Made by a program: the position numbers and the translations under genes. The notes below the pieces were generated by a model, which was given only the letters and a program-made list of their open reading frames with translations, was not told the DNA's origin and searched no databases. From assembly GCF_000526195.1 (NCBI RefSeq), contig NZ_JAFP01000001.1, forward strand, positions 248,001 to 312,000: a DNA stretch of 64,000 nt, in the 5' to 3' direction. Shown one piece after another: positions 920-55,093 of this stretch; within the stretch, counting starts at the first letter, position 1, and each line of letters opens with the position of its first letter. This DNA is from Hippea sp. KM1. GTDB taxonomy: Bacteria > Campylobacterota_A > Desulfurellia > Desulfurellales > Hippeaceae.

Positions 920-2052
920 GAAGGAGAATCTCCCTGTTTATATATTCTCTTTCGAGTGGTGGCGCTGAGCGTGTTGTGTCTATGCTGTTAAGGCATCTAA
1001 AAAATAAATATGACATAACTCTGGTCTTGATGAATAGTACTATATTCTATGAAATACCTAAGGATGTAAATATATTCTATTTGGAAGATTCCGATCCAAA
1101 TGAAAGTGGATTTAAAAAATTCATAAAACTGCCTTTTCTGGCATGGAAATACAGAAATTTTTTAAGAAAGAATAAGATCAAAATATCTTTGAGTTTTCTC
1201 TCAAGGCCTAATTACATAAATGCAATGGCGAAGTTGTTTGGAGGTAGAGCAAAAACGATAATTACCGAGAGGGCAACGCCCTCTTTACAATATGGATATG
1301 GAGACCTTTTGTCTGTTGTAAATAAGTTGCTTTTAAGATTGTATAACCTTGCTGATATGATAATATCAAATTCCAAGGGCAACGCTTATGATCTTAAAGA
1401 TATTTTTAATATAAAGGCAAACATAAAGACCATATATAATTTCATTGACAGCAAGGCCTTAAAAAGGGAATGCAACAAGTCAAAAAGTTCAAGTAAAGGG
1501 TTTATTTTTATAACGGTTGGTAGACTTGACAAAGGTAAAAACCATATCCTTCTGCTGAAGGCAATTGAGGGTTTAAATGCCAAGTTGTGGATAATTGGCG
1601 ATGGTGAACTTAAAGAGTTTCTAAATGATCAAATTAGTAAAATAGGCTTAGAAGAGAAGGTAAAACTCTTGGGAAGGCAAAAAAATCCGTTTGAGTTTTT
1701 AAAACAGGCCGACTGTTTTGTTTTTTCCTCAAATCATGAGGGCTTCCCCAACGCAATTTTAGAGGCCTTGGCTTGTGGTCTTCCTGTGATTTCAACAGAC
1801 TGCAGAAGTGGTCCCAGGGAAATACTTGCTCCTAACACAGATTTTAAGATGCAAGCAAAAGATGTGGAGTTAGCAGAATACGGAATACTTGTTCCTGTAA
1901 ATAATGCAGATAGAATGCAAAAGGCAATGGAGCTAATCATGAAGAACCATGATATAAGAGAAAAATACGCTCAAAAAGCAAAAAAAAGGGCGATGGATTT
2001 TGATATAGAAAAGATTATGGAGAAGTGGGAGAAGGTTTTGGAAAGTGCTTAA
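916..2052 (+). CDS. pglJ: PglJ-like GT4 glycosyltransferase
   Basis: GT-B fold, family 4 glycosyltransferase of 378 residues. The N-terminus (FIYSLSSGGAERVVSMLL) and the following stretch with ITLVLMN and KLPFLAWKY match my memory of Campylobacter PglJ closely. The C-terminal half has VGRLDKGKNH and the donor-binding EGFPNAILEALACGLPV segment. PglJ adds alpha-1,4-GalNAc to undecaprenyl-PP-linked GalNAc-bacillosamine on the cytoplasmic face of the membrane. It overlaps both neighbours (ATGA with the upstream gene, 8 nt with pglK), as in a tight operon. The exact sugar cannot be read from sequence; PglH is the nearest alternative. Confidence 0.82.
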   Translation: MRRRISLFIYSLSSGGAERVVSMLLRHLKNKYDITLVLMNSTIFYEIPKDVNIFYLEDSDPNESGFKKFIKLPFLAWKYRNFLRKNKIKISLSFLSRPNYINAMAKLFGGRAKTIITERATPSLQYGYGDLLSVVNKLLLRLYNLADMIISNSKGNAYDLKDIFNIKANIKTIYNFIDSKALKRECNKSKSSSKGFIFITVGRLDKGKNHILLLKAIEGLNAKLWIIGDGELKEFLNDQISKIGLEEKVKLLGRQKNPFEFLKQADCFVFSSNHEGFPNAILEALACGLPVISTDCRSGPREILAPNTDFKMQAKDVELAEYGILVPVNNADRMQKAMELIMKNHDIREKYAQKAKKRAMDFDIEKIMEKWEKVLESA

Positions 2053-3766
2053 TATATTTAAGAAATTAAGGGTTATATTGTCCAGACGAGATAAAGAATT
2101 TCTTGCATTCCTTTTGATGTTTTCTGTTGCTGTTTCTGCTGTTGAGGTTGTAGGGGTTGGCATAATTATGCCCTTTATAGGTGTTGCCACCAATTTTAAT
2201 AATATATTTTCGAATAAATACCTAAAAGGAGTATACAACATCTTTGGTTTTTCATCGCCTGTGAGTTTTGTTATAGCCTTTGGTTTATTTCTTGTATTTT
2301 TTTATATTTTTAGAAGCGTATTTAATCTGTTGTATTTTTACCTTCTAAGCAGGTTTTCTCAGGGTAGATATCACCTTATAGCGTATAAATTGTTTGAGAA
2401 GTATTTAGGCATGCATTATGTGGATTTTGTTAACAAAAACTCCTCTCATTTTATAAAAACTATAGTGAACGAGGCTCAAAACCTTGTTCAACTTATATCA
2501 AACATTCTATTCATGATGAGCGAAATATTCGTCGTTATCTTTATATACAGTATGTTGGTATATGTAAATTGGAAGATGACTTTACTATTAACAACTTTTC
2601 TTGGAATAAATGTATTTATTTTGAAAACCTTTGTATCAACCAAGATAAAAAAGGCAGGAGAGATAAGAAACGAGATGCAGCAAAGGTTTTATGAGATAAT
2701 GACCTCATCCTTTGGTAACTTTAAGATAATCAAGCTTAAAGGGAACGATAAAGATATATTGAAGAAATTCTCAGAGGCCAGTTATGGTTTTGCTAAGGTT
2801 AACATACTCAATCAGACATTGGTGCAGGTGCCAAGACTGTTCCTGGAGGCTATAGGTTTTGGTTTAATTTCACTCATAGTGGTGTATTTGGTGTATAAGT
2901 ACAAAAGTGATATAAAGGCTGCGTTGCCTATCCTGAGTATGTTTGTTTTGGGATTATACCGGTTGATGCCGAGTGTAAATAGAATTTATACCTCATACAA
3001 TCAGGTTTTATTCTATCTAAAATCTTTAGACATAACTCATGCTGATTTATTGTATGAGCCTGAGGCACTAAAGGATGAAAAGATAGAATTTGGAAGAGAA
3101 ATAAAGTTAAAGGATGTGTGGTTTGAATACCAAAAAAATAAGCCTGTATTAAAGGGTATAAACTTAACTATAAAGAAGGGTGAAAAAATAGGAGTAATGG
3201 GCAAAAGCGGAAGTGGCAAATCCACTTTAGTCGATCTAATTATAGGGCTTTACAAACCAGCAAAAGGAGAAATATTGGTTGATAATAGAAAATTGAGTGA
3301 GAAAAATGTTAAATCCTGGAGGAAAAAGATAGGTTACATCCCTCAAACTATATATCTATTTGATGGGACGGTAGCTGAGAATGTTGCCTTTGGAGAGGAG
3401 ATAGATGAGGAAAAAGTTAGAAAGGTCTTGGATATGGCCAATATTTTGGATTTTTTAGAGAAAAATCACAATGGTATATATACCAGAGTTGGGGAAAACG
3501 GAGTTATGCTTAGCGGAGGACAGAAACAAAGGGTTGCAATTGCAAGAGCTCTCTATGGTGATCCAGAAATATTGGTGTTGGATGAAGCAACGAGTTCTCT
3601 TGATTCCCAAACAGAGGCAAAGATTATGGATGAGATATACAGGATAGGCAAAAGCAAAACGATGATAATTGTCGCTCATAGAACTTCAACCCTGGATAGG
3701 TGCGATAGGATTGTGGAAGTTAGGAATGGAGAGATTAAAAGATGTGTGGAATTGCAGGCGGGGTGA
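2045..3766 (+). CDS. pglK: PglK-type lipid-linked oligosaccharide flippase (ABC transporter)
   Basis: A half-transporter of 573 residues with an N-terminal membrane domain of about six helices (roughly residues 20-310) followed by an ATPase domain. Visible are Walker A GKSGSGKST, a signature LSGGQKQR, Walker B ILVLDEATSSLD and the H-loop VAHRTST. Segments such as LYRLMPSVNRI and GYIPQTIYLFDGT resemble Campylobacter PglK. It would flip the undecaprenyl-PP glycan to the periplasm for PglB. It starts with GTG inside the end of pglJ and overlaps the following asnB by 25 nt. MsbA-like lipid exporters are the main alternative, but length, motifs and context favour PglK. Confidence 0.88.
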   Translation: MLNIFKKLRVILSRRDKEFLAFLLMFSVAVSAVEVVGVGIIMPFIGVATNFNNIFSNKYLKGVYNIFGFSSPVSFVIAFGLFLVFFYIFRSVFNLLYFYLLSRFSQGRYHLIAYKLFEKYLGMHYVDFVNKNSSHFIKTIVNEAQNLVQLISNILFMMSEIFVVIFIYSMLVYVNWKMTLLLTTFLGINVFILKTFVSTKIKKAGEIRNEMQQRFYEIMTSSFGNFKIIKLKGNDKDILKKFSEASYGFAKVNILNQTLVQVPRLFLEAIGFGLISLIVVYLVYKYKSDIKAALPILSMFVLGLYRLMPSVNRIYTSYNQVLFYLKSLDITHADLLYEPEALKDEKIEFGREIKLKDVWFEYQKNKPVLKGINLTIKKGEKIGVMGKSGSGKSTLVDLIIGLYKPAKGEILVDNRKLSEKNVKSWRKKIGYIPQTIYLFDGTVAENVAFGEEIDEEKVRKVLDMANILDFLEKNHNGIYTRVGENGVMLSGGQKQRVAIARALYGDPEILVLDEATSSLDSQTEAKIMDEIYRIGKSKTMIIVAHRTSTLDRCDRIVEVRNGEIKRCVELQAG

Positions 3767-5553
3767 ATATAAAAGCTGATTATAATTTTTTGCTGAACTC
3801 TTTAAAACACAGAGGGCCTGATGATTGGGGGAGATGGGAGAGTAAAAACCTATTTCTTTTTCACACAAGGCTTGCAATTCAAGATATTAAGCAGGGAAGG
3901 CAACCCTTTGAATATAAGGATTTTTTGATTGTTTTTAATGGGGAAATTTATAACCATTTAGAGTTGAGAAAACACTATTTGCAGGAATTCAAATTTAAGA
4001 CAAATTGCGATACAGAAACCCTGCTCTATCTATACATTAAATATAAAGAGAAAATGTTTGACAAGATTGATGGCATGTTTGCCTTCTGTATATTTGATAA
4101 AAAAGAAAACAAGCTGTTTTTAGCAAAAGATAGGGCGGGTAAAAAACCCCTTTTTTATTATAAAAAGGGCGATAAGCTCTTTTTTGCCAGTGAGCTTAAG
4201 GCTTTTGGGTTTTTGGAGGGTATTTATCCGAATGAAGAATCTATCTATACATATTTAAGGACTGGTTTTTTTCCTTTTGAGTATACACCGTTTAGAGATG
4301 TTAAAAAACTAAAGAACGGATCTTTTTTGATTTATGATCTTAGCGATAACACTATAAAAACAAAGAGATATTTTGATATTGAGAAATATTACAGACAAGA
4401 TAGGCTTAATAAAAAGGAAGATGAAATCTTGGAGGCTTTGGATGAAAAATTGACAGAAAGCATAAGAGATAGGATGCTTGCGTCGGATCTTGAGGTTGGA
4501 GCGTTTTTAAGTGGGGGCATAGACAGCTCTTTGGTTGTTGCAATAGCTTCTGAGTTTACAAAGAGGTTAAAGACCTTTACTGTAAAATTCGAAGGGGCTT
4601 ACGATGAATCCAATCTTGCTAAATTGACTTCACAGATGTACTCAACCGACCATACAGAGATTGAAATCACAATGGATCTAAAAAACGATATAGAGAAGAT
4701 TCTATCCAATTACGGAATGCCTTTTATGGATTCATCGGCTATACCGAGTTATTATGTAAGTAGAGAGGCAAAAAAACACATCACGGTTGTTTTAAACGGG
4801 GATGGAGCAGATGAGTTGTTTGGGGGATATAGGCGTTATGTTCCTATTGCAAATAGGTTGCTGAGGCGTTTTAAAAGATTGGCTTTTTTATTTAGAATGC
4901 TCCCTCCGCCAAAAGAAAAGCAGTCGCATTACAATTACCTGTATAGGTTGGCAAGCATGTCTAACAAGGAAGGGCTTGATCTTTATTTATCGGCAACCAC
5001 GGATGTATTTGAGGATGTGTATGAGTTTAAAGACGCATTTCAACTTAACAGACTTAATGGGTTTGTTAAAAAAGTGCTCAATGATAACATGCTAACGGAT
5101 CTATCCAAGTTTCTATATTTGGATTTTGAGCTTATACTATTTTCGGATCTGTTGATTAAAATGGACATTGCGACGATGGCCAACTCTTTGGAGGCAAGAA
5201 GCCCTTTTCTTGGCAAAGGCATATTGGAGTTTGCTCCTTTGTTGGAGGACAACCTGAAAGTCAGAGGGGCAACCACGAAATATATTTTAAGGAGATTAGC
5301 AGAAAAATACCTTCACAAGAAATTGATTAAACAGCCAAAAAGGGGATTTGAGGTTCCTCTAAAAAAATGGGTGAATAGTGAACTTAAAGAGGCTATTTTT
5401 GATTATTTGCAAAAAGGATGCTATTCGGAGAATTTCATAAATAGGAGCTTTATCGATAGATTGCTGGAGAACAGGATAAGGGTCTCAGAGGAAAAAAGAG
5501 CCAAGATGTTGTGGTCTATGTTTTGCCTTGAGGTATGGAAGAATAATTTATGA
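3742..5553 (+). CDS. asnB: Asparagine synthetase B-like glutamine amidotransferase
   Basis: A full-length AsnB of 603 residues. It begins MCGIAGG, so Cys2 becomes the N-terminal nucleophile of the class II glutaminase, which is followed by NGEIYNH. The synthetase domain carries the PP-loop FLSGGIDSS, then NGDGADELFGGYRRY and MDIATMANSLEARSPFL. The start lies inside pglK and the stop overlaps pglA by ATGA. It could supply asparagine, but the position between pglK and pglA and the second copy upstream make amidation of a sugar carboxylate a reasonable alternative (inference). Confidence 0.88.
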   Translation: MCGIAGGVNIKADYNFLLNSLKHRGPDDWGRWESKNLFLFHTRLAIQDIKQGRQPFEYKDFLIVFNGEIYNHLELRKHYLQEFKFKTNCDTETLLYLYIKYKEKMFDKIDGMFAFCIFDKKENKLFLAKDRAGKKPLFYYKKGDKLFFASELKAFGFLEGIYPNEESIYTYLRTGFFPFEYTPFRDVKKLKNGSFLIYDLSDNTIKTKRYFDIEKYYRQDRLNKKEDEILEALDEKLTESIRDRMLASDLEVGAFLSGGIDSSLVVAIASEFTKRLKTFTVKFEGAYDESNLAKLTSQMYSTDHTEIEITMDLKNDIEKILSNYGMPFMDSSAIPSYYVSREAKKHITVVLNGDGADELFGGYRRYVPIANRLLRRFKRLAFLFRMLPPPKEKQSHYNYLYRLASMSNKEGLDLYLSATTDVFEDVYEFKDAFQLNRLNGFVKKVLNDNMLTDLSKFLYLDFELILFSDLLIKMDIATMANSLEARSPFLGKGILEFAPLLEDNLKVRGATTKYILRRLAEKYLHKKLIKQPKRGFEVPLKKWVNSELKEAIFDYLQKGCYSENFINRSFIDRLLENRIRVSEEKRAKMLWSMFCLEVWKNNL

Positions 5554-6650
5554 AAATAGCCTTTCTGTCGCATTTAGATTTGAATCTATATCTTTTTAGA
5601 CTGCCCATTATGAAGGAGTTGGTTAAAAAGGGGCATAGGGTTTATGCAATAGCGCCAAAGGGTGAGTTTTTGGAAAAATTCTTAGAATGCGGCATTACAC
5701 CTGTAAATTATGAGATAGAAAGGCAGAGTCTGAATCCTTTTAAAGAGTTGAAGACCCTAAAGCTCATTAGAAGCATAGTTCATGATATTTCGCCCGATAT
5801 ACTGCACACTTTTATGCATAAACCAAACATATACGGGAATCTCACGGGTGCTAAGAATATAGTTAACACTATCACAGGTTTGGGGAGTTTTTTTATTCAT
5901 GATGACATCAAGTCTGTTGGTGTGAGGGTATTGATAGAGGCGCTGTATAAATGCACCTCAAGCAGGACAAAAAGGATTGTCTTTCAAAATAGAGACGATT
6001 TGGATCACTTTGTTAATAAGGGTATAATACCAGAAGAGAAAGCTGTTTTGATAAAAGGGAGCGGAATAGATACAAAAGCCTTCGAGCCCATGCCAAAAAA
6101 CAAAAAATTAATAAAGGAATTGGGGTTGGGCGATAAACCTGTTGTTCTAATGGTTGCAAGGGTTATTAGAGATAAAGGCGTTGAAGAGTATATAAAAGCT
6201 GCCGAGTTGTTGAAAGATAGGGCTTACTTTCTATATGCAGGAGAAATAGACAGGGGCAACAAGAATGCGTTTATACCAGGCTGGAAAAATATTAATTACT
6301 TAGGCTTTAGAAGTGATATAAAAGAGCTTCTGTCAATTTGCGATATATTCGTTCTGCCCAGCTATAGAGAGGGCATCCCAAGAACTTTATTAGAGGCAGC
6401 GTCAATGGAAAAGCCCATTGTCACCACAGACACGGTTGGTTGCAAGGAGGTTGTGGATAATGGCGTAAATGGCTTTTTAGTGCCTGTTAAGGATAGCAAG
6501 GCACTGGCTGAAAAAATTGAATTTCTAATAGATAATCCTGAAATTAGGAAAGAGTTTGGCAAAAGAGGGAGAGAAAAGGTATTGAAAGAGTTTGATGTTA
6601 AGATCGTTGTTGAGCAATATTTGAGATTGTATAATGAAATTTTGGATTAA
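5550..6650 (+). CDS. pglA: PglA-like GT4 glycosyltransferase
   Basis: 366 residues, GT-B fold. [20 protein letters not shown] at the N-terminus, then [23 protein letters not shown] and [20 protein letters not shown], parallel Campylobacter PglA as I recall it. PglA adds the first alpha-1,3-GalNAc to undecaprenyl-PP-bacillosamine. The family's catalytic EX7E region is present near residues 273-281. It sits directly before pglC, which makes its acceptor, 3 nt apart. The donor sugar is inferred from the family, not seen. Confidence 0.85.
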
Positions 6651-6652
6651 CT

Positions 6653-7258
6653 ATGTATAAAAATTTTTTCAAACCGCTGTTGGATAAGGTTTTGGCTTTG
6701 ATTGGTATAACTATATTTTCCCCTGTAATGCTATGCGTTGTCGTTTCGATTTATATATGGGATGGAAGGCCGATATTGTTTATTCAGGAAAGGCCTGGGT
6801 ATAAAGAGAAGGTATTCAAGATTTATAAGTTTCGCACAATGACGAACGAAAGAGATGAAAATGGCAATTTGCTTCCCGATGAGAAGAGGCTAAAAGGTGT
6901 TGGTAGGATTATAAGGAGCTTGAGTTTGGATGAGCTGCCGCAGTTGTTTAATGTCTTGAAGGGTGATATGAGTTTTGTTGGACCTCGACCTTTGCTCGTT
7001 GAGTATTTACCTTTATATAACGAAAGACAAAGAAAAAGGCATGATGTAAAACCGGGTATTACCGGTCTTGCTCAGGTTATGGGAAGAAACGCATTGAGCT
7101 GGAAAGAAAAGTTTGAATACGATGTTTACTATGTTGAAAACCTCTCTTTTTGGCTTGACTTAAAAATTATATTGCTGACAATATGGAAAGTACTGAAAAG
7201 AGAAGGTATTTCTCAAAAGGGCAGAGCCACTATGGAGAAGTTCAATGGGAGGAATTGA
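6653..7258 (+). CDS. pglC: PglC-like phosphoglycosyl transferase
   Basis: A 201-residue monotopic phosphoglycosyl transferase. One N-terminal re-entrant membrane segment (residues about 12-35) precedes IYKFRTM, the catalytic Asp-Glu dyad in [22 protein letters not shown] and [10 protein letters not shown]. PglC transfers phospho-bacillosamine from the UDP-sugar to undecaprenyl phosphate, the first membrane step of the N-glycan. In Campylobacter pglD follows; here the stop is directly abutted by an antitoxin-like gene, with only a pglD stub further on. That marks the 3' end of pglC as an insertion or rearrangement boundary. Confidence 0.92.
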
Positions 7259-7516
7259 ATGATAGTTATTGAGAAGGGAGCTAAGGTGTTCAAGGTGGAT
7301 GATGAGCTGTTTGATGATGTAAAGGAGTTTTTGCACGATTTGGCCAAAAAAAGGAATAAATCCTTTAGCTACTTTGATGAGTTGGGGGATTTGATTGTAG
7401 TGAAAGGAAATGAAGAATTTGTAATACCGATGGATGAGGATGTGAAGGCTATATCAGAGGCTGAAAGAGAAGATTTTTTGGATGAAGAGGAAGTGAAAAA
7501 GATACTGGATGTATAG
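7259..7516 (+). CDS. Small acidic antitoxin-like protein
   Basis: 85 residues, strongly acidic, with a short N-terminal strand (MIVIEKGAKVFKV), a middle strand (DLIVVKGNEEFVIPM) and a C-terminal charged helix. It starts on the base after the pglC stop with a GGGAGGA Shine-Dalgarno inside pglC. I do not recognise a named family. The size, charge and an 8-nt overlap with a RelE-like toxin remnant are typical of the antitoxin in a type II toxin-antitoxin pair. If so, it is an orphan antitoxin. Confidence 0.5.
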   Translation: MIVIEKGAKVFKVDDELFDDVKEFLHDLAKKRNKSFSYFDELGDLIVVKGNEEFVIPMDEDVKAISEAEREDFLDEEEVKKILDV

Positions 7517-7619
7517 TGTAAAATACAGTAAACAAGTAGTGAAGTTTTTGCAAAAGCAGGATATAGGAATAAGAGTTAAGGTTATAAAGGCGAGTAGTAG
7601 GGGTGATGTTTATAAATGA
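7509..7619 (+). pseudogene. RelE/ParE-type toxin remnant (internal deletion)
   Basis: A 36-codon frame starting at an ATG overlapping the antitoxin-like gene by 8 nt. The N-terminus (MYSVKYSKQVVKFLQKQD) looks like the first helix of RelE-type toxins and the C-terminus (KASSRGDVYK) like their conserved last strand. Intact members are about 85-95 residues, so roughly 50 central residues, including the core sheet, appear to be missing. It is probably inactive. A naturally short unrelated peptide cannot be excluded. Confidence 0.55.
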
Positions 7620-7720
7620 TAGAAGGCAGTAAAATTTTATACATCTATGGAGCAAGTGGGCATGGTAAAGTTGTATGTAAAAGAGATGAAAGTGAAAAAG
7701 GGAGTAGGTTAAGGCTTTGA
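7616..7720 (+). pseudogene. pglD: PglD N-terminal remnant (sugar N-acetyltransferase)
   Basis: A 34-codon frame encoding MIEGSKILYIYGASGHGKVV and then 14 unrelated residues to a TGA. The Rossmann-like segment KILYIYGASGHGKVV is characteristic of PglD/NeuD family N-termini (Campylobacter PglD has a very similar IYIYGASGHG). The left-handed beta-helix acetyltransferase domain, about 170 residues, is absent. It lies between pglC and pglE, where pglD belongs. Its stop overlaps the ATG of the ATP-grasp gene (TGATG). The simplest reading is that pglD was replaced, leaving its first 20 or so codons. Confidence 0.75.
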
Positions 7721-8667
7721 TGAAGGAAATTAATGTTTTGATTACAAGTGCTGGAAGAAGGGTTAGTCTGGTAAGAAACTTTCAAAAATACGCTAAGGTA
7801 TATACATGTGATATGAATCCAGAAATGAGTGCAGCTTGCCAGGTTAGCGACGGGTATTTTAGGGTGCCAAAAGTAAATGATAAAAATTATATTGAGATAT
7901 TGTTGGATTATTGTTTGAAAAATAACATAAATATAGTAATTCCGACAATTGATCCAGAATTAATTATTTTATCAAAAGCTAAAACAGATTTTAAAAAAAA
8001 CAATATACTGATAGCTATCTCATCTCTAAATATATGCGAGATGTTTTACTCAAAAAGAAAAACAGAATATTTTTTCAAAAAAATCAAACTAAAAACACCT
8101 CGGGTAATCGATAATTTGAAGGATGCTACTTATCCTTTATTTGCGAAACTTGAAAATTCTTCTTCCTCAGTAGGGGCAACAAAAGTTGAGAGCTATGAAG
8201 AGGCTATAATATTAAAGAAAAAGAACCCCTTATATGTTTTTCAGGAATATATAGAGGGGGAAGAATATACTGTTGATGTATTTGTTAATAGAGAAGGTAA
8301 GGTAATTTCTATAGTTCCAAGACTGAGAATAGAAGTAAGGTCGGGAGAAGTTAGCAAGGGAAAAACAGTAAAGGATGCTCATATTATCGGACAAATTAAA
8401 AAGCTCTTTAAACACTTAAACGGAGTATACGGGGCTATAACTGTGCAGTTGTTTAAAAAAGAGGGTGAGCTATTTTTTATAGAAATCAACCCTAGGTTTG
8501 GAGGCGGTTATCCGCTTTCATATTTGGCAGGATCGGATTTTGCGAAATACCTTATAAAAGATTATTTGGGTGAGAATTTGGAATATTCAGAGAATTGGAA
8601 AAATAACCTAATAATGCTCCGCTATGATGCAGAGGTATTAGTTGATGGTGGTGGTATTCGATCTTGA
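7720..8667 (+). CDS. ATP-grasp ligase in the pglD position
   Basis: 315 residues when started at ATG 7720 (a TTG 3 nt upstream is less likely). It has an N-terminal nucleotide-binding-like fold (VLITSAGRRVSLV), the ATP-binding Lys in PLFAKLENSSSSVGATK (about residue 143), the QEYIEGEEYTVDV strand and the metal-binding EINPRFGG near residue 255. ATP-grasp enzymes form amide or ester bonds through an acyl-phosphate. Neisseria PglB2 uses an ATP-grasp domain where PglB uses an acetyltransferase, giving a glyceramido-bacillosamine. By position this protein could do the same to UDP-4-amino-sugar (inference). The gene is visibly more AT-rich than pglE and pglF. Confidence 0.75.
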   Translation: MKEINVLITSAGRRVSLVRNFQKYAKVYTCDMNPEMSAACQVSDGYFRVPKVNDKNYIEILLDYCLKNNINIVIPTIDPELIILSKAKTDFKKNNILIAISSLNICEMFYSKRKTEYFFKKIKLKTPRVIDNLKDATYPLFAKLENSSSSVGATKVESYEEAIILKKKNPLYVFQEYIEGEEYTVDVFVNREGKVISIVPRLRIEVRSGEVSKGKTVKDAHIIGQIKKLFKHLNGVYGAITVQLFKKEGELFFIEINPRFGGGYPLSYLAGSDFAKYLIKDYLGENLEYSENWKNNLIMLRYDAEVLVDGGGIRS

Positions 8668-9277
8668 TGATACTTTATACGATGAAATAAACTTCGTAAG
8701 AAGCGGTTTTGCGGAAATAGCATCTTACTTAGGGGATAGGAAATATTTCGACTTTTTGTGGGAAGATTTTATGAAGAAAGGTAGTGGAAAGAATATAGAT
8801 AATTTACTTTCTGTCTTTAAAATAAAAGAAAAAAAAGAAAAACTGATAGAAATATATAGATTTCATACACCAAATATAGAGCTTAATAATGATGCGAGAG
8901 CGGTATTGCATTATTTAAAAGAAAAAAAAATATCTACTGCAATTATAACAGATGGCCACTATATAACACAAAAAAATAAGTTCACGGCTTTGGGCTTGGA
9001 TAAGTTAATAGACTTTGTTGTTTTTACTGATTATTACCATACAAAAAAACCGGATTTAAGGCCATTTCATATTGTTATGTCTCATTTCTCAAAAGAAAAA
9101 TATTTTTGTTATATAGCGGATAACCCACAAAAAGATTTTATAGCTCCTTTAAAGCTCGGATGGAAGGCTGTAAGATACAAAAATAAAAATGGAGTGTACA
9201 ATAAAATAAAATGTGCATTGCAGATACCAGAAATTAGCAATCTGATGGATGCAGTAGAAATATTGGGTCTAAAATGA
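8645..9277 (+). CDS. HAD-family phosphatase
   Basis: 210 residues from the ATG at 8645. Motif I is FDLDDTLYDE with nucleophile Asp6 and Asp8. Motif II is IITDGHY, the motif III Lys is in HTKKPD, and the last loop reads YIADNPQKDF, an Asn-Pro variant of the usual GD-D. The alpha-helical cap lies between residues about 15 and 80, giving a subfamily I architecture like YjjG. It overlaps the ATP-grasp gene by 23 nt and pglE by ATGA, so the pair is embedded in the pgl operon. It might supply the dephosphorylated acid, for example glycerate, to the ATP-grasp ligase (inference). It is AT-rich like its partner. Confidence 0.75.
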   Translation: MVVVFDLDDTLYDEINFVRSGFAEIASYLGDRKYFDFLWEDFMKKGSGKNIDNLLSVFKIKEKKEKLIEIYRFHTPNIELNNDARAVLHYLKEKKISTAIITDGHYITQKNKFTALGLDKLIDFVVFTDYYHTKKPDLRPFHIVMSHFSKEKYFCYIADNPQKDFIAPLKLGWKAVRYKNKNGVYNKIKCALQIPEISNLMDAVEILGLK

Positions 9278-10359
9278 ACAGTAAGATCTTTCTCTCCCCA
9301 CCCCATATGTCGGGGAAAGAGCTTGATTATATAAAAGAGGTTTTTGAGAGCAATTATATTGCGCCGGTTGGTGAGTTTATAGAGAGGTTTGAACAGTCTA
9401 TTTGTGATTTTACAAAGGCAAAGTATACTTGCGCCGTTGTCAATGGCACAAGCGCAATCCATCTTGCTCTGAGGATTTTGGGAATTAAGAATGGAGATAA
9501 GGTTTTAGCCTCAACATTTACATTTATAGGCTCAATTACGCCCATACTCTTTCAAAATGCTGAGCCTGTTTTTATTGACAGCGACGAGAGCTGGAATATA
9601 GACCCAGGCCTTGTTGAGGAGGCTGCAAAAAAAGAAAAACCCAAAGCTCTGATTGTTACGCACCTTTACGGTCAAATGGCAAAGATTGAGGATTTGCTGT
9701 TTTTATCAAGAAAATACGGTTTTTATTTGATAGAAGATGCCGCTGAAGCCCTTGGTGCTACATACAAGAAAAAACATGCAGGCACATTTGGCGATTTTGG
9801 CATATACAGTTTTAACGGCAATAAGATTATCACAACGAGCTCGGGTGGAATGCTTGTGAGCTCTAACGGAGAATGGATAAGACAGGCAAGATTTCTATCA
9901 ACGCAGGCAAAGGAGAATTACCCGTGGTATGAGCATGAAACCTTTGGCTATAATTACAGGATGAGCAATGTCTTGGCTGCAATTGGTGTAGCTCAGATGG
10001 AGGTTTTGGAAGAAAGAGTAAAAAGAAAAAGGGAAATCTTTGATATTTACAAAAGGGAACTTGGAGATATAGCCGATTTTATGCCAGAGATTGAAAACTC
10101 AAGAGGCAACAGGTGGCTTACAACTTTAATTTTTAAAGATAAAAACCCTCTGAAGGTTTCAGAGACGCTAAAAAAACACAATATAGAATCAAGGCCTCTG
10201 TGGAAGCCTATGCACACACAGCCTGTTTTTAGAAATGCAAAGGCATACATAAACGGCGCATCTGAGGCTCTATTTAAGAAAGGCCTGTGTCTGCCAAGCG
10301 GTACGGCTTTGAAGGATGAGCAAATAATTGAAATTTGCAGGATAATAAGGAAAGGATAA
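9274..10359 (+). CDS. pglE: PglE-like UDP-4-keto-sugar aminotransferase
   Basis: 361 residues, DegT/DnrJ/EryC1 (fold type I PLP) family. The motifs SPPHMSGKELDYI, VNGTSAIHLALR, LIEDAAEALGA and SFNGNKIITTSSGG are present; the Lys in the last binds PLP. It makes UDP-4-amino-4,6-dideoxy-GlcNAc from the 4-keto sugar made by PglF, with glutamate as amino donor. The product's 4-amino group is what PglD, or here perhaps the ATP-grasp enzyme, acylates. It overlaps the HAD gene upstream by ATGA and pglF downstream by TAATG. Confidence 0.9.
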   Translation: MNSKIFLSPPHMSGKELDYIKEVFESNYIAPVGEFIERFEQSICDFTKAKYTCAVVNGTSAIHLALRILGIKNGDKVLASTFTFIGSITPILFQNAEPVFIDSDESWNIDPGLVEEAAKKEKPKALIVTHLYGQMAKIEDLLFLSRKYGFYLIEDAAEALGATYKKKHAGTFGDFGIYSFNGNKIITTSSGGMLVSSNGEWIRQARFLSTQAKENYPWYEHETFGYNYRMSNVLAAIGVAQMEVLEERVKRKREIFDIYKRELGDIADFMPEIENSRGNRWLTTLIFKDKNPLKVSETLKKHNIESRPLWKPMHTQPVFRNAKAYINGASEALFKKGLCLPSGTALKDEQIIEICRIIRKG

Positions 10360-12203
10360 TGGATTTACTTAAACCAACACAGACCAAGAGATTAATCTTT
10401 TTTCTGTTAAGCGATACCGTATTTTTTGCCTTTAGTCTCTATTTTTCTCTCCTTTTGAGGTTTAACTTTGAAATACCTGCCAATTTTATAAGCAACTACT
10501 TTTACTGGCTTTTGCCTACAATACTGATAAAGATATCATTGCTTTGGATTTTTGACATCTACAAACTCAACTGGCGATTTGTCAGTATCGGTGAATTTTA
10601 TAAGATTATAAAGGGTTTGTTTATAGCCTTTTTTGTGTTGTATTTGCTAAACTTAGGTGCACAAAGGTTTTATTCTGCTCTTTGCCTTCCAAAATCATCA
10701 GTTATTATAGATTTTCTCATCTCAAGCTTTCTTGTGTTGCTTCTAAGGGCTGCAAGAAGGGTCTATTTTGAGGTTATTAACCCTCCAAAAAACAGCAACG
10801 CAAAGAATACTCTAATTATAGGTGCAGGATACACCGGCGAAAAAATCATAAGGGAAATAAATATGACGCCTAAGACTAAATACAAACCCGTTGCAATTTT
10901 GGACGATGATAAGGAAAAGCATAACACTCTTATTCATAATGTAAAGGTGGTTGGGACATTAGACGATATTGAGAAAGCAGTTGATAGGTATAACATAAAA
11001 AGTGCCGTTATAGCTATTGCAACACTTCAGCACAACAAAGTAAAAGAGCTATACGATAGGCTCTCAAACTCTGGTGTAAAAGATATAAAGATCGTTCCGA
11101 GTCTTGATAAGCTGCCCAACAAGGATGTGTCTTTGAAGGATTTGAAGGATATATCCATTGAGGATTTGCTTGCAAGGGAAATGGTAATAATTGATACAAC
11201 AGGAATTAGATCATTTTTGGAGAACAAGGTAATTTTGGTAAGTGGGGCTGGTGGTTCTATTGGGTCGGAGATTGTTAATCAGTTGCTTTCATATAATCCA
11301 AAAAGCGTTATAGGCTTTGAAATCGATGAGACCGAACTCCACTCTTTGATGTTGAAATTTAAGGATAAACCGTTTTTGCCTGTGGTTGGTGATATTAGAA
11401 ACAAAGAGAAGCTTTTAAAGGTATTTAATATATATAAACCACAAATTGTATTCCACGCTGCAGCATACAAGCATGTGCCTATGATGGAGATGTTTCCCGA
11501 AGAGGCTATAGAGACAAACATATTGGGCACGCTTAATCTAATAGAATCGTCGCTTGAGGCAGGTGTTGAGAAATTTATAAACATATCAACCGATAAGGCG
11601 GTTAACCCCAAAAATGTAATGGGAGCGACAAAACGGATAGCCGAGATTCTCTGCCGGGCATACAACGAAAGGGGTAAAGCCAAATTCATATCGGTTAGGT
11701 TTGGCAATGTGCTTGGAAGCAGGGGTTCGGCAATCCCCTTATTTATTGAACAGATCAAAAAAGGTGGCCCAATAACAATCACACACCCAGATATGAAGCG
11801 ATACTTCATGAGTATACCAGAGGCGGTTTCACTGGTTTTGCAGGCTGCATATATGGGTGAGGGCGGTGAGGTTTTTGTTTTGGATATGGGTGAGCCGATA
11901 AAGATTGTGGAGCTTGCAGAGAGGTTAATAAAACTTGAAGGACTTGAACCTTATAAGGACATAGATATTGTTTTTACGGGTGTTCGACCTGGAGAGAAGT
12001 TATTTGAAGAGCTTTTGACGGCAGAGGAGGGCGTGGATAAGACTTATCATGAGAAAATATATGTAGCCAGAATAAAATCGGATTTTTCCAATAAGCAGAT
12101 AGAGGATATTGTTTCAGAAATTAAAGAGGCTCTGAGGGGAGTTGATAAGTCAGAGATAAAAAAGGTATTGAAAAAATATATTCCTTCTTATGATCAGTCT
12201 TGA
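10359..12203 (+). CDS. pglF: PglF-like UDP-GlcNAc 4,6-dehydratase
   Basis: 614 residues from the ATG that overlaps the pglE stop. Four N-terminal membrane helices (residues about 10-135) are followed by a CoA-binding-like Rossmann domain (TLIIGAGYTGEKI) and a catalytic SDR domain with VSGAGGSIGSEI. The active-site segment STDKAVNPKNVMGATKR has Met and Lys in place of Tyr-Lys, as in PglF/CapD. It converts UDP-GlcNAc to the UDP-4-keto-6-deoxy sugar, the first step to bacillosamine. It is the last gene of the pgl operon; I see no strong terminator in the 114 nt that follow. Confidence 0.92.
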   Translation: MDLLKPTQTKRLIFFLLSDTVFFAFSLYFSLLLRFNFEIPANFISNYFYWLLPTILIKISLLWIFDIYKLNWRFVSIGEFYKIIKGLFIAFFVLYLLNLGAQRFYSALCLPKSSVIIDFLISSFLVLLLRAARRVYFEVINPPKNSNAKNTLIIGAGYTGEKIIREINMTPKTKYKPVAILDDDKEKHNTLIHNVKVVGTLDDIEKAVDRYNIKSAVIAIATLQHNKVKELYDRLSNSGVKDIKIVPSLDKLPNKDVSLKDLKDISIEDLLAREMVIIDTTGIRSFLENKVILVSGAGGSIGSEIVNQLLSYNPKSVIGFEIDETELHSLMLKFKDKPFLPVVGDIRNKEKLLKVFNIYKPQIVFHAAAYKHVPMMEMFPEEAIETNILGTLNLIESSLEAGVEKFINISTDKAVNPKNVMGATKRIAEILCRAYNERGKAKFISVRFGNVLGSRGSAIPLFIEQIKKGGPITITHPDMKRYFMSIPEAVSLVLQAAYMGEGGEVFVLDMGEPIKIVELAERLIKLEGLEPYKDIDIVFTGVRPGEKLFEELLTAEEGVDKTYHEKIYVARIKSDFSNKQIEDIVSEIKEALRGVDKSEIKKVLKKYIPSYDQS

Positions 12204-52484: not shown

Positions 52485-53099
52485 ATGAGGGGTGTGTTGT
52501 TTGAGGGCAATTTTATCTGTCCGAGTAAGGTTGTGTGTATAGCAAGGAACTATGTTGAACACATAAAGGAGTTAAACAACGAGCAGCCGGGTAATATAAC
52601 GCTGTTTATAAAGCCCAATAGCTCTGTATCGACCGAGCTGTTTTTGCCTAAGTTTGGAAGGTGCCATTATGAGGGTGAGATAAGCCTGCTTGTTAAGGAT
52701 GGTGATTTTGTTGGTGTGGGTTTTGGTATAGATCTGACGATAAGGGATATGCAGAGTGTTTTAAAGGAGAAGGAGCTGCCGTGGGAGAAGGCCAAGGCAT
52801 TCGATAATGCGGCTGTTTTTAGCGATTTTGTGGCTATAGATAGGGCCGATATAGATGGGCTGGGTATAGAGTTGTACATAAATGGAGACCTAAAGCAGAA
52901 GGGCGATGTCTCTTTGATGATAAACAAGCCGTATGAGATACTAAATGAGGCAAAAAAATACTTTAGCTTCTGTGATTACGATATATTGATGACAGGCACA
53001 CCCAAGGGTGTTGGCGAATTTAAAGAAGGTGATAGGTTTTTAGGCAGAATACTTCTAAATGGTAAGGTGGTAATTGAAAAAGAGTGGGTCGTAAAATGA
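52485..53099 (+). CDS. Fumarylacetoacetate hydrolase-family protein
   Basis: 204 residues from ATG 52485 with GGAGG upstream. The family segments are KVVCIARNYVEHIKEL, the metal-binding YEGEISLLV with FGIDLTIRDMQ, and MTGTPKGVGEFKEGD. Short FAH-domain proteins include acylpyruvases and oxaloacetate tautomerases/decarboxylases. The latter would suit a TCA-based metabolism (inference). The last residues overlap the STT3 gene by ATGA. Confidence 0.82.
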   Translation: MRGVLFEGNFICPSKVVCIARNYVEHIKELNNEQPGNITLFIKPNSSVSTELFLPKFGRCHYEGEISLLVKDGDFVGVGFGIDLTIRDMQSVLKEKELPWEKAKAFDNAAVFSDFVAIDRADIDGLGIELYINGDLKQKGDVSLMINKPYEILNEAKKYFSFCDYDILMTGTPKGVGEFKEGDRFLGRILLNGKVVIEKEWVVK

Positions 53100-55093
53100 A
53101 GCGGGTAGGCTATTTTAATTTTAAGCTGTTCCTAATTTTTGTTGTGCTTGTCTTTTCGGCCTCGTTCTATTTCAGGTATCATCAATTCAGCGTGTGGAAG
53201 ACCATGCCCGATGTCTATTTTGTTAGGAATTACCCTGCCATGACCACACTTGATGCCTATTACTGGTTGAGGTATGCAAAGGAATACAAAAACGGCACTT
53301 ACTATAACTCCGATAATGACACCTTAATGGCGTATCCTGAATTTACAACAAAACCCAGACCGGTTCCCATGATAAGCTTTTTGATAGCCTGGCTTTCAAA
53401 GATAACCGGTATGTCTATATACTTAAGTGGCTTGATGCTTGTTCCGATACTGGCAAGCCTTTTTATTATACCGTTTGCGCTTTTGTTTTATGAGGCTGAA
53501 ATGCCCATAGCGGGCCTTGTTGGCGGCTTTGTGGGGGCTTTCTCGTGGATGTATGCCATAAGAACGGCCATGGGCAGGGTGGATACAGACCTCCTTCAGT
53601 TGTTTTTTATGTTTCTTGGCTCTTATCTTGTCATAAGGACCGGGTATGCGAAGGATGGAAGGAATAGGTATGTGTATGCATCGCTGCTTGGCTTGAATTT
53701 CCTCCTGTTTGGATGGTGGTATGGACATGTGGGCATTGACCTTGTCTATTTTGCCATACTGTTGTTTGTGCTTTTGGTTAGAAGGGTAAAGATAAAAGAG
53801 ATAGCCGTTGCTTCTGCTCTGTTTATCCTGTTTGCCAACCCTGTATGGTTCTTTTCAGGCTTTGACAGTATCATAGGGTTCTTTAGCAATTATGGAAAGA
53901 TAACCACCACATCGGGTGGCAGCTTTCCCAATATAATGAAAACAATCACAGAGACTGAGCATGTGCCTGCAGCAAGGGTGTTGGGGTATATACTCTCTGT
54001 GCCGATTATAGACACTATAGGGCTTATACTGTCGCTGTTTGGTCTTGTTTTTGCAAGGCTCTATGGCGTTGCCGTTTTGCCTGCGTTTCTGTTGGGGCTT
54101 TTGGCCTTTAGGTCGTCCAACAGAACCGTTATGTTTCTGGCGCCGTTTGTTGGCATCGGTGTCGGTTTTCTGTTTGATTTTATTCTGGGCAGGCTGAAAA
54201 ACGACAGGTTTAGCAGTATTTTAAGGAATGCTGTTGCCTGTTTGGTTGTGGTTGTTTTGATTATAGCCCTTGGCAGGTTTAGTGCATATAGGTTTGTGCC
54301 CAAACCCTCCATAGCAGCACCCATTGTCGATAGCTTCATAGATCTAAAGGGCAGGTTGGGTAAGGCTGTGATTTTCTCCTGGTGGGATTACGGATACGCC
54401 ATTGAGGATATAAGCGGTTTTGCGACATACCACGACGGAGGCGTCCACGGTGGGGCAAGGACATACCTGGTGGCCAAAGCGCTCATCAGCGACAATCAAA
54501 CGCTTATGCATAACATAATATCGTTTATGGATCATTACGGCGTTAAACCCATAATGGACAATATAACCAAGGACAACATCTCTGCGGGTAAGGCTGTCAG
54601 GATGGCGTTTGGGTTTGAAAAACCCTTGAAGGACAACAACAACTATGTTTTGTTCAGCGAGGATATGATAGGCAAATACTATGCAATAAGCTATCTGGGA
54701 AGCTGGGATTTTGATAAGGAGAAGTCTTTTCCTGATGGCTATTCTGTGTTTGTGTGTTTTGATTTTAAGGGTGGCATCTTTAGGTGCAACAAGGGCTTTA
54801 TAGATACAAAAAAGGGGTTTGTTTCAAATAAACTGCCCATAAAGAGGCTTGTTTATGTTGTAAACGGCAATGTTCAGAGTATAAAGGAGATACACGATAA
54901 GGGCGTGAATGTGGAGATTTGTCTGACAAAACAGGACAACGGTCGTCTCACCTTTAGGTTTGCTCTTATCTGCGACGATAGGGTGTTTATGAGCAACTTT
55001 AACCGCATGTACATATTGGGTGATTACGATAAGGGGCTATTTGAGGAGGTTTACAATAGATTTCCGACGGTTAGGGTTTTTAGGGTTAAATAG
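53096..55093 (+). CDS. pglB: PglB/STT3-family oligosaccharyltransferase
   Basis: 665 residues from ATG 53096 (ATGA overlap). The N-terminal ~400 residues form about 12-13 membrane helices, followed by a periplasmic domain. Catalytic features: Asp53 in TTLDAYYWLRY, the DxD pair in GRVDTDLLQ (residues 163-165), the TIxE motif as TITE near 283-286, and the acceptor-binding WWDYG at 429-433. It transfers undecaprenyl-PP-linked glycan to Asn in D/E-X-N-X-S/T. It is encoded about 41 kb from the other pgl genes, at the end of the murE-to-FAH gene run. Confidence 0.92.
   Translation: MKRVGYFNFKLFLIFVVLVFSASFYFRYHQFSVWKTMPDVYFVRNYPAMTTLDAYYWLRYAKEYKNGTYYNSDNDTLMAYPEFTTKPRPVPMISFLIAWLSKITGMSIYLSGLMLVPILASLFIIPFALLFYEAEMPIAGLVGGFVGAFSWMYAIRTAMGRVDTDLLQLFFMFLGSYLVIRTGYAKDGRNRYVYASLLGLNFLLFGWWYGHVGIDLVYFAILLFVLLVRRVKIKEIAVASALFILFANPVWFFSGFDSIIGFFSNYGKITTTSGGSFPNIMKTITETEHVPAARVLGYILSVPIIDTIGLILSLFGLVFARLYGVAVLPAFLLGLLAFRSSNRTVMFLAPFVGIGVGFLFDFILGRLKNDRFSSILRNAVACLVVVVLIIALGRFSAYRFVPKPSIAAPIVDSFIDLKGRLGKAVIFSWWDYGYAIEDISGFATYHDGGVHGGARTYLVAKALISDNQTLMHNIISFMDHYGVKPIMDNITKDNISAGKAVRMAFGFEKPLKDNNNYVLFSEDMIGKYYAISYLGSWDFDKEKSFPDGYSVFVCFDFKGGIFRCNKGFIDTKKGFVSNKLPIKRLVYVVNGNVQSIKEIHDKGVNVEICLTKQDNGRLTFRFALICDDRVFMSNFNRMYILGDYDKGLFEEVYNRFPTVRVFRVK

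Follow-up and report, generated by a model that had tools for sequence, protein, structure and literature searches.

In Hippea sp. KM1, a two-gene cassette encoding an ATP-grasp ligase and a HAD-type phosphatase has taken the place of PglD in a Campylobacter-type pgl operon. PglD is the acetyltransferase of the first sugar in the diNAcBac pathway. The pair probably swaps the acetyl group on this sugar for a glycerate-type acyl group. The replacement of PglD by the two genes, first proposed in a sequence-only reading, is supported by the exchange of the slot among relatives, by a pglD stump and by the phylogenetic trees of both enzymes.

The pgl operon and the pglD stump

The window analyzed here is the whole stretch of 64,000 nucleotides at C1:248001-312000 in a complete genome (1,742,311 bases, single contig, 99.99% complete). 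Hippea sp. KM1 belongs to the order Desulfurellales, which is placed within Campylobacterota by NCBI. The pgl operon spans window positions 2045-12203 on the + strand, with the gene order PglK, AsnB-type, GT4, PglC, two short reading frames, pglD stump, ATP-grasp, HAD, PglE, and PglF (Table 1). The solved Campylobacter enzymes were the best matches of PglC, PglE, PglF, and PglK, each well above the next family. PglC transfers the sugar 1-phosphate of a UDP-bacillosamine-type sugar to undecaprenyl phosphate. The AsnB-type neighbor is conserved alongside the cassette in genome G006 and in the loci L055 and L053. A large polysaccharide-type gene cluster adjoins the operon upstream. In this cluster, upstream of the window, an ATP-grasp-like gene distinct from that of the cassette was recognized by eye next to genes for an oxidoreductase and a DegT aminotransferase (L030:11944-13095).

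Table 1. Features of the pgl operon and the distant oligosaccharyltransferase gene, in window coordinates
Feature	Position	Strand	Basis
PglK, ABC flippase of lipid-linked glycan	2045..3766	+	C. jejuni PglK 5c73, 586 bits vs 327 for the next
AsnB-type amidotransferase gene	3742..5553	+	PF00733, PF13537
GT4 glycosyltransferase, directly before pglC	5550..6650	+	PF00534; conserved with cassette
PglC, monotopic phosphoglycosyl transferase	6653..7258	+	PF02397; C. concisus PglC 8g1n, 296 bits vs 114 for the next family
pglD remnant, 34 codons	7616..7720	+	Alignment to G017 PglD; PF17836 positions 2-15
ATP-grasp ligase, proposed N-acylase of UDP-4-amino sugar	7720..8667	+	PF21360/PF02655/PF15632
HAD-IA phosphatase (predicted)	8645..9277	+	PF13419
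PglE, UDP-4-keto-6-deoxy-GlcNAc 4-aminotransferase	9274..10359	+	C. jejuni PglE 4ztc, 449 bits vs 263 for 7b0m
PglF, UDP-GlcNAc 4,6-dehydratase	10356..12203	+	C. jejuni PglF/WlaL 5bju, 294 bits
STT3/PglB oligosaccharyltransferase, outside operon	53084..55093	+	PF02516, PF21436 above cut-off; WWDYG motif

The stump (MIEGSKILYIYGASGHGKVVCKRDESEKGSRLRL, followed by a stop codon) keeps the N-terminal nucleotide-binding motif alone. When aligned locally with intact PglD from genome G017 it scored 60, and the highest score among 1000 shuffles was 42. The motif at the start of the intact protein (LLIYGASGHGKVI) is nearly the same as that of the stump (LYIYGASGHGKVV). The best Pfam match of the stump was PglD_N, positions 2-15, with an E-value of 0.0023. 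The sequence-only reading had placed about 20 codons of pglD between pglC and pglE, immediately followed by ATP-grasp and HAD genes overlapping into pglE; the remnant and the overlaps stand, while the remnant is now longer and is itself preceded by two reading frames of 85 and 36 codons. The stop codon of the stump (7718-7720) and the ATP-grasp start (7720) have one base in common, the end of the ATP-grasp frame overlaps the HAD frame, and the HAD stop overlaps the pglE start. Of the PglD acetyltransferase of the Campylobacter-type pgl (diNAcBac) pathway, only this stump was found. The possibility of an intact pglD elsewhere in the genome, raised earlier, did not materialize: PglD_N (PF17836) had zero matches in the nearly complete single contig, and the TIGR03570 search of the genome returned, below the cut-off, hexapeptide proteins and the nucleotide-binding domain of PglF and nothing more. 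Other genomic acetyltransferases were considered for the role of PglD and rejected, as the hits were hexapeptide-only and the best was a serine acetyltransferase-like protein. No pglD remnants were found in the corresponding slots of genomes G014 and G006.

Between pglC and the stump (7259-7619), the 85-codon frame is acidic and antitoxin-like by eye, without a Pfam match above the cut-off, and the 36-codon frame resembles the start of a RelE-type toxin, apparently truncated. The same slot in G014 holds a nucleotidyltransferase (MNT-like) gene (L047:9321-9653). The slot seems to gather toxin-antitoxin-like genes.

Exchange of the slot and conservation of the pair

The comparison set comprised 19 genomes of the order, 6 of which encode a close PglE. 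Genome G017 (L049), from the same family as Hippea sp. KM1, shares the order PglC-x-PglE-PglF with the window, but x is an intact PglD acetyltransferase in G017, whereas the window genome (G000), G006, and G014 have PglC-ATPgrasp-HAD-PglE-PglF. The ATP-grasps of G006 and G014 are 62-64% identical to that of the window, and in G009 the contig ends at the slot. At 31.4%, the 1.56-kb ATP-grasp/HAD block has a lower GC content than any other stretch of its length in the window, which fits a gained cassette; the GC3 of the cassette is 0.26-0.28 vs 0.36-0.41 in PglK, AsnB, GT4, PglC, PglE, and PglF. In a further genome of the order, G013, pglE-pglF lies beside a different phosphoglycosyl transferase (L048:5549-7259) with neither PglD nor ATP-grasp, so the 4-amino sugar there may receive an acyl group by another route or stay unacylated.

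An unbiased scan of the genomes of 84,980 species with the ATP-grasp alone as the query gave 51 loci from at least six phyla (Pseudomonadota, Planctomycetota, Myxococcota, Acidobacteriota, Verrucomicrobiota, Actinomycetota, Thermodesulfobacteriota). A homologue of the window HAD was located directly downstream of the ATP-grasp in 46 of these loci, and therefore the two genes form a unit. On the other hand, more distant ATP-grasps of the same superfamily, collected by profile search in two sets of other genomes, were almost never followed by a homologue of this HAD. PglC and PglE were present on the same strand in 7 of the 51 loci, and PglD was found on that strand in none of the seven. A Desulfohalobiaceae MAG carries AsnB-GT4-ATPgrasp-HAD (L168:742-5542) with an ATP-grasp ~60% identical to that of the window; the absence of an adjacent pglC or pglE suggests cross-phylum transfer of the cassette or misbinning.

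The ATP-grasp protein matched PylC-like_N, ATP-grasp_3, ATPgrasp_Ter, and PRK12767 (Pfam/NCBIfam), and its signature residues are retained. The carbamoyl-phosphate-synthase-like PRK12767 family is its best profile, although the score of 329.5 bits is under the NCBIfam cut-off of 390, and among solved structures 2pn1 comes closest to it in both sequence and fold, although 2pn1 has no characterized function in the matches. The model of the ATP-grasp (pLDDT 94) had 2pn1 and PylC (4ffl) as its nearest ligase folds. The HAD protein matched HAD_2 (Pfam), its catalytic residues D6, D8, K135, D159, and D164 are invariant in 28 homologues, and its model (pLDDT 97) was nearest to PH1655 and N-acylneuraminate-9-phosphatase. 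Both folds are borne out by the predicted models, from which the substrates are not readable.

Kinship with the pglB2 locus of Neisseria

Neisseria-type loci were reached through a 23S signature pattern, which led to a betaproteobacterium, to its order, and to five genomes. In these five loci, the gene for a PglB-type phosphoglycosyl transferase is separated by an A-rich junction from an ATP-grasp gene in the next frame, after which comes a HAD gene. Genes for a formyltransferase-like protein, an aminotransferase, and a dehydratase follow, and DNA-uptake motifs of the neisserial kind occur close by. From the order, the uptake (DUS) motifs, and the locus layout, we infer that the loci belong to Neisseria. 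The layout agrees with the pglB2 locus in the gene table that lists pglB2, pglB2b, two further tags, pglC, and pglD (PMC7643975). A search for Neisseria by its DNA-uptake motif in 369 genomes of the Halospina class found none. Genome G282, with six matches, was rejected as Neisseria, being Haemophilus-like with its own uptake motif (AAGTGCGGT). One region of it (L131, G282:C28:15001-35000) holds many copies of the uptake motif of Neisseria, ATGCCGTCTGAA, which suggests a recent transfer between genera.

In the maximum-likelihood tree, the window ATP-grasp falls with the neisserial ones into one 12-member clade (bootstrap/SH-aLRT 100/99), and the HAD tree recovers the same 12 members (98/96) with a congruent topology. 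The earlier concern that the ATP-grasp might group with an unrelated ligase family is thereby answered. The window pair shares with the PglB2-type cassette an ATP-grasp of the lineage of the PglB2 C-terminal domain, as judged against the putative Neisseria loci, and a downstream HAD of the same lineage. The phosphoglycosyl transferase and the ATP-grasp are separate genes in the window, not one polypeptide (Table 1); the five Neisseria-type loci likewise have them in two reading frames, and a split pglB2 allele is reported to be functional (PMC4569582), so fusion is not a strict requirement. In Neisseria, pglB2 is phase-variable through a simple repeat (PMC8627216), PglB2 leads to glyceramido-acetamido-trideoxyhexose (GATDH; PMC6959607, PMC11130364), and the glyceramido group is on C4 according to cryo-EM (PMC10948894).

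The two systems have in common the genes for phosphoglycosyl transferase, ATP-grasp, HAD, aminotransferase, and dehydratase, and in both the acetyltransferase of the diNAcBac pathway is replaced. They differ in that phosphoglycosyl transferase and ATP-grasp can be fused in Neisseria, that the neisserial glycan is O-linked, and that the flanking enzymes of the window are of the Campylobacter type. Moreover, Neisseria has an additional formyltransferase-like gene between HAD and aminotransferase (L163:8785-9606, also in L162, L164, L165, and L166), for which no counterpart was found in the window; if this gene is needed for GATDH, the analogy weakens.

Proposed pathway

We hypothesize that the first sugar is made and transferred in five steps. 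By orthology, PglF and PglE would convert UDP-GlcNAc to UDP-4-amino-4,6-dideoxy-GlcNAc. The ATP-grasp would then use ATP to activate a carboxylic acid, which is joined to the 4-amino group instead of acetyl; judging from the fold, the slot, and the kinship with PglB2, this step is very likely. The acid is somewhat more probably than otherwise glycerate or phosphoglycerate, in which case the enzyme would acylate the 4-amino group by way of an acyl phosphate of that acid, and the product would be GATDH, the glyceramido sugar known in Neisseria. The HAD likely strips a phosphate at one of two points: 3-phosphoglycerate could lose it ahead of ligation, or the ligated product could lose it afterward. 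It is similarly likely that PglC loads undecaprenyl phosphate and that the glycan, once extended by the GT4 enzymes and flipped by PglK, is transferred to Asn by the STT3/PglB homologue. We infer the identity of the acid, the HAD step, and the Asn linkage, and all five steps taken jointly are less certain than the acyl swap alone. The most likely product of the pair would be glyceramido-bacillosamine for N-glycosylation.

Linkage of the glycan

The sequence-only reading had assigned the operon to a PglB-type N-glycosylation set. An oligosaccharyltransferase is indeed present in the window, but not in the operon, from which it lies 40 kb away. Like the C. jejuni pgl N-glycosylation operon, the window has orthologues of PglC, PglE, PglF, and PglK, and the genome encodes a predicted STT3/PglB with the expected domains and WWDYG motif; unlike it, the window has a PglD stump with ATP-grasp and HAD instead, and a PglB outside the operon that is only weakly similar to C. 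lari PglB (6gxc, 48 bits). A less likely, though not negligible, alternative is that the cassette makes the sugar but its glycan is not N-linked and serves O-linked protein glycosylation, surface polysaccharide, or LPS instead. This alternative bears on the final transfer and may hold alongside the acyl swap. It draws on the O-linked product of Neisseria (PMC11130364), on the polysaccharide-type cluster upstream, and on the distribution of STT3, which is found in 17 of the 19 genomes of the order, with or without this operon, and in only 2 of 12 other cassette-bearing genomes, so that carrying the cassette does not in general imply N-glycosylation. In G014, a 97% complete MAG that carries the cassette, no STT3 match was found. 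Against it, PglK, PglC, PglE, and PglF specifically match the N-glycosylation set of C. jejuni and C. concisus, and the genome has STT3/PglB with WWDYG.

Identity of the acyl group

The window ATP-grasp shares only about 41% identity with those of Neisseria, and therefore the acid could differ from the neisserial one. What the ATP-grasp ligates to the 4-amino group might instead be an amino acid or a different hydroxy acid, such as lactate or hydroxybutyrate, with the HAD freeing the acid from its phosphate; we regard this as rather improbable. In such a case the replacement of PglD stands and the sugar is not GATDH. The diversity of PRK12767-type ATP-grasps, the amino-acid ligase PylC as the nearest characterized ligase by fold, the differences at about 59% of positions from the neisserial enzymes, and a HAD specificity not readable from sequence all leave room for another acid. 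By contrast, the ATP-grasp and the HAD are each sister to the neisserial pair, and the co-conservation of a phosphatase in different phyla is in keeping with an acid that derives from a phosphorylated central metabolite. Finally, a decaying operon that lost pglD and carries the pair as unrelated cargo, leaving the 4-amino group free or the pathway dead, would agree with the toxin-antitoxin-like debris and the stump in the slot and with G013, but it is very improbable given intact and overlapping reading frames, order and adjacency shared by G006, G014, and L055, retained catalytic residues, and a PglC-ATPgrasp-HAD-PglE linkage that recurs in other phyla.

Significance

In the glyceramido reading of the pair, the neisserial chemistry would occur, in unfused form, within an N-linked-type operon. 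The fullest version of this reading, an Asn-linked glyceramido-bacillosamine made by a mobile, unfused, PglD-exchanging cassette of at least six phyla in which the HAD is an obligate and so far unrecognized enzyme, is tentative and falls somewhat short of an even chance. In the literature searched, no publication joining an ATP-grasp with bacillosamine or GATDH was found, and no earlier report of a cassette-exchangeable reducing-end sugar of N-glycans. In the literature found, no HAD step was given for the synthesis of glyceramido sugars, for which the HAD is a candidate second enzyme. The ATP-grasp/HAD pair may serve as a simple genome marker, in many phyla, for 4-N-acylated sugars other than the acetylated ones. 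The reducing-end sugar of the Campylobacter N-glycan is diacetylbacillosamine. Because the acetylating enzyme of Hippea sp. KM1 is replaced by a cassette related to the glycerate-attaching one of Neisseria, the first sugar of its protein-linked glycans is probably chemically different. If this is true, it would point to cassette exchange of the reducing-end sugar in bacterial N-glycans, like that of the O-linked one in Neisseria.
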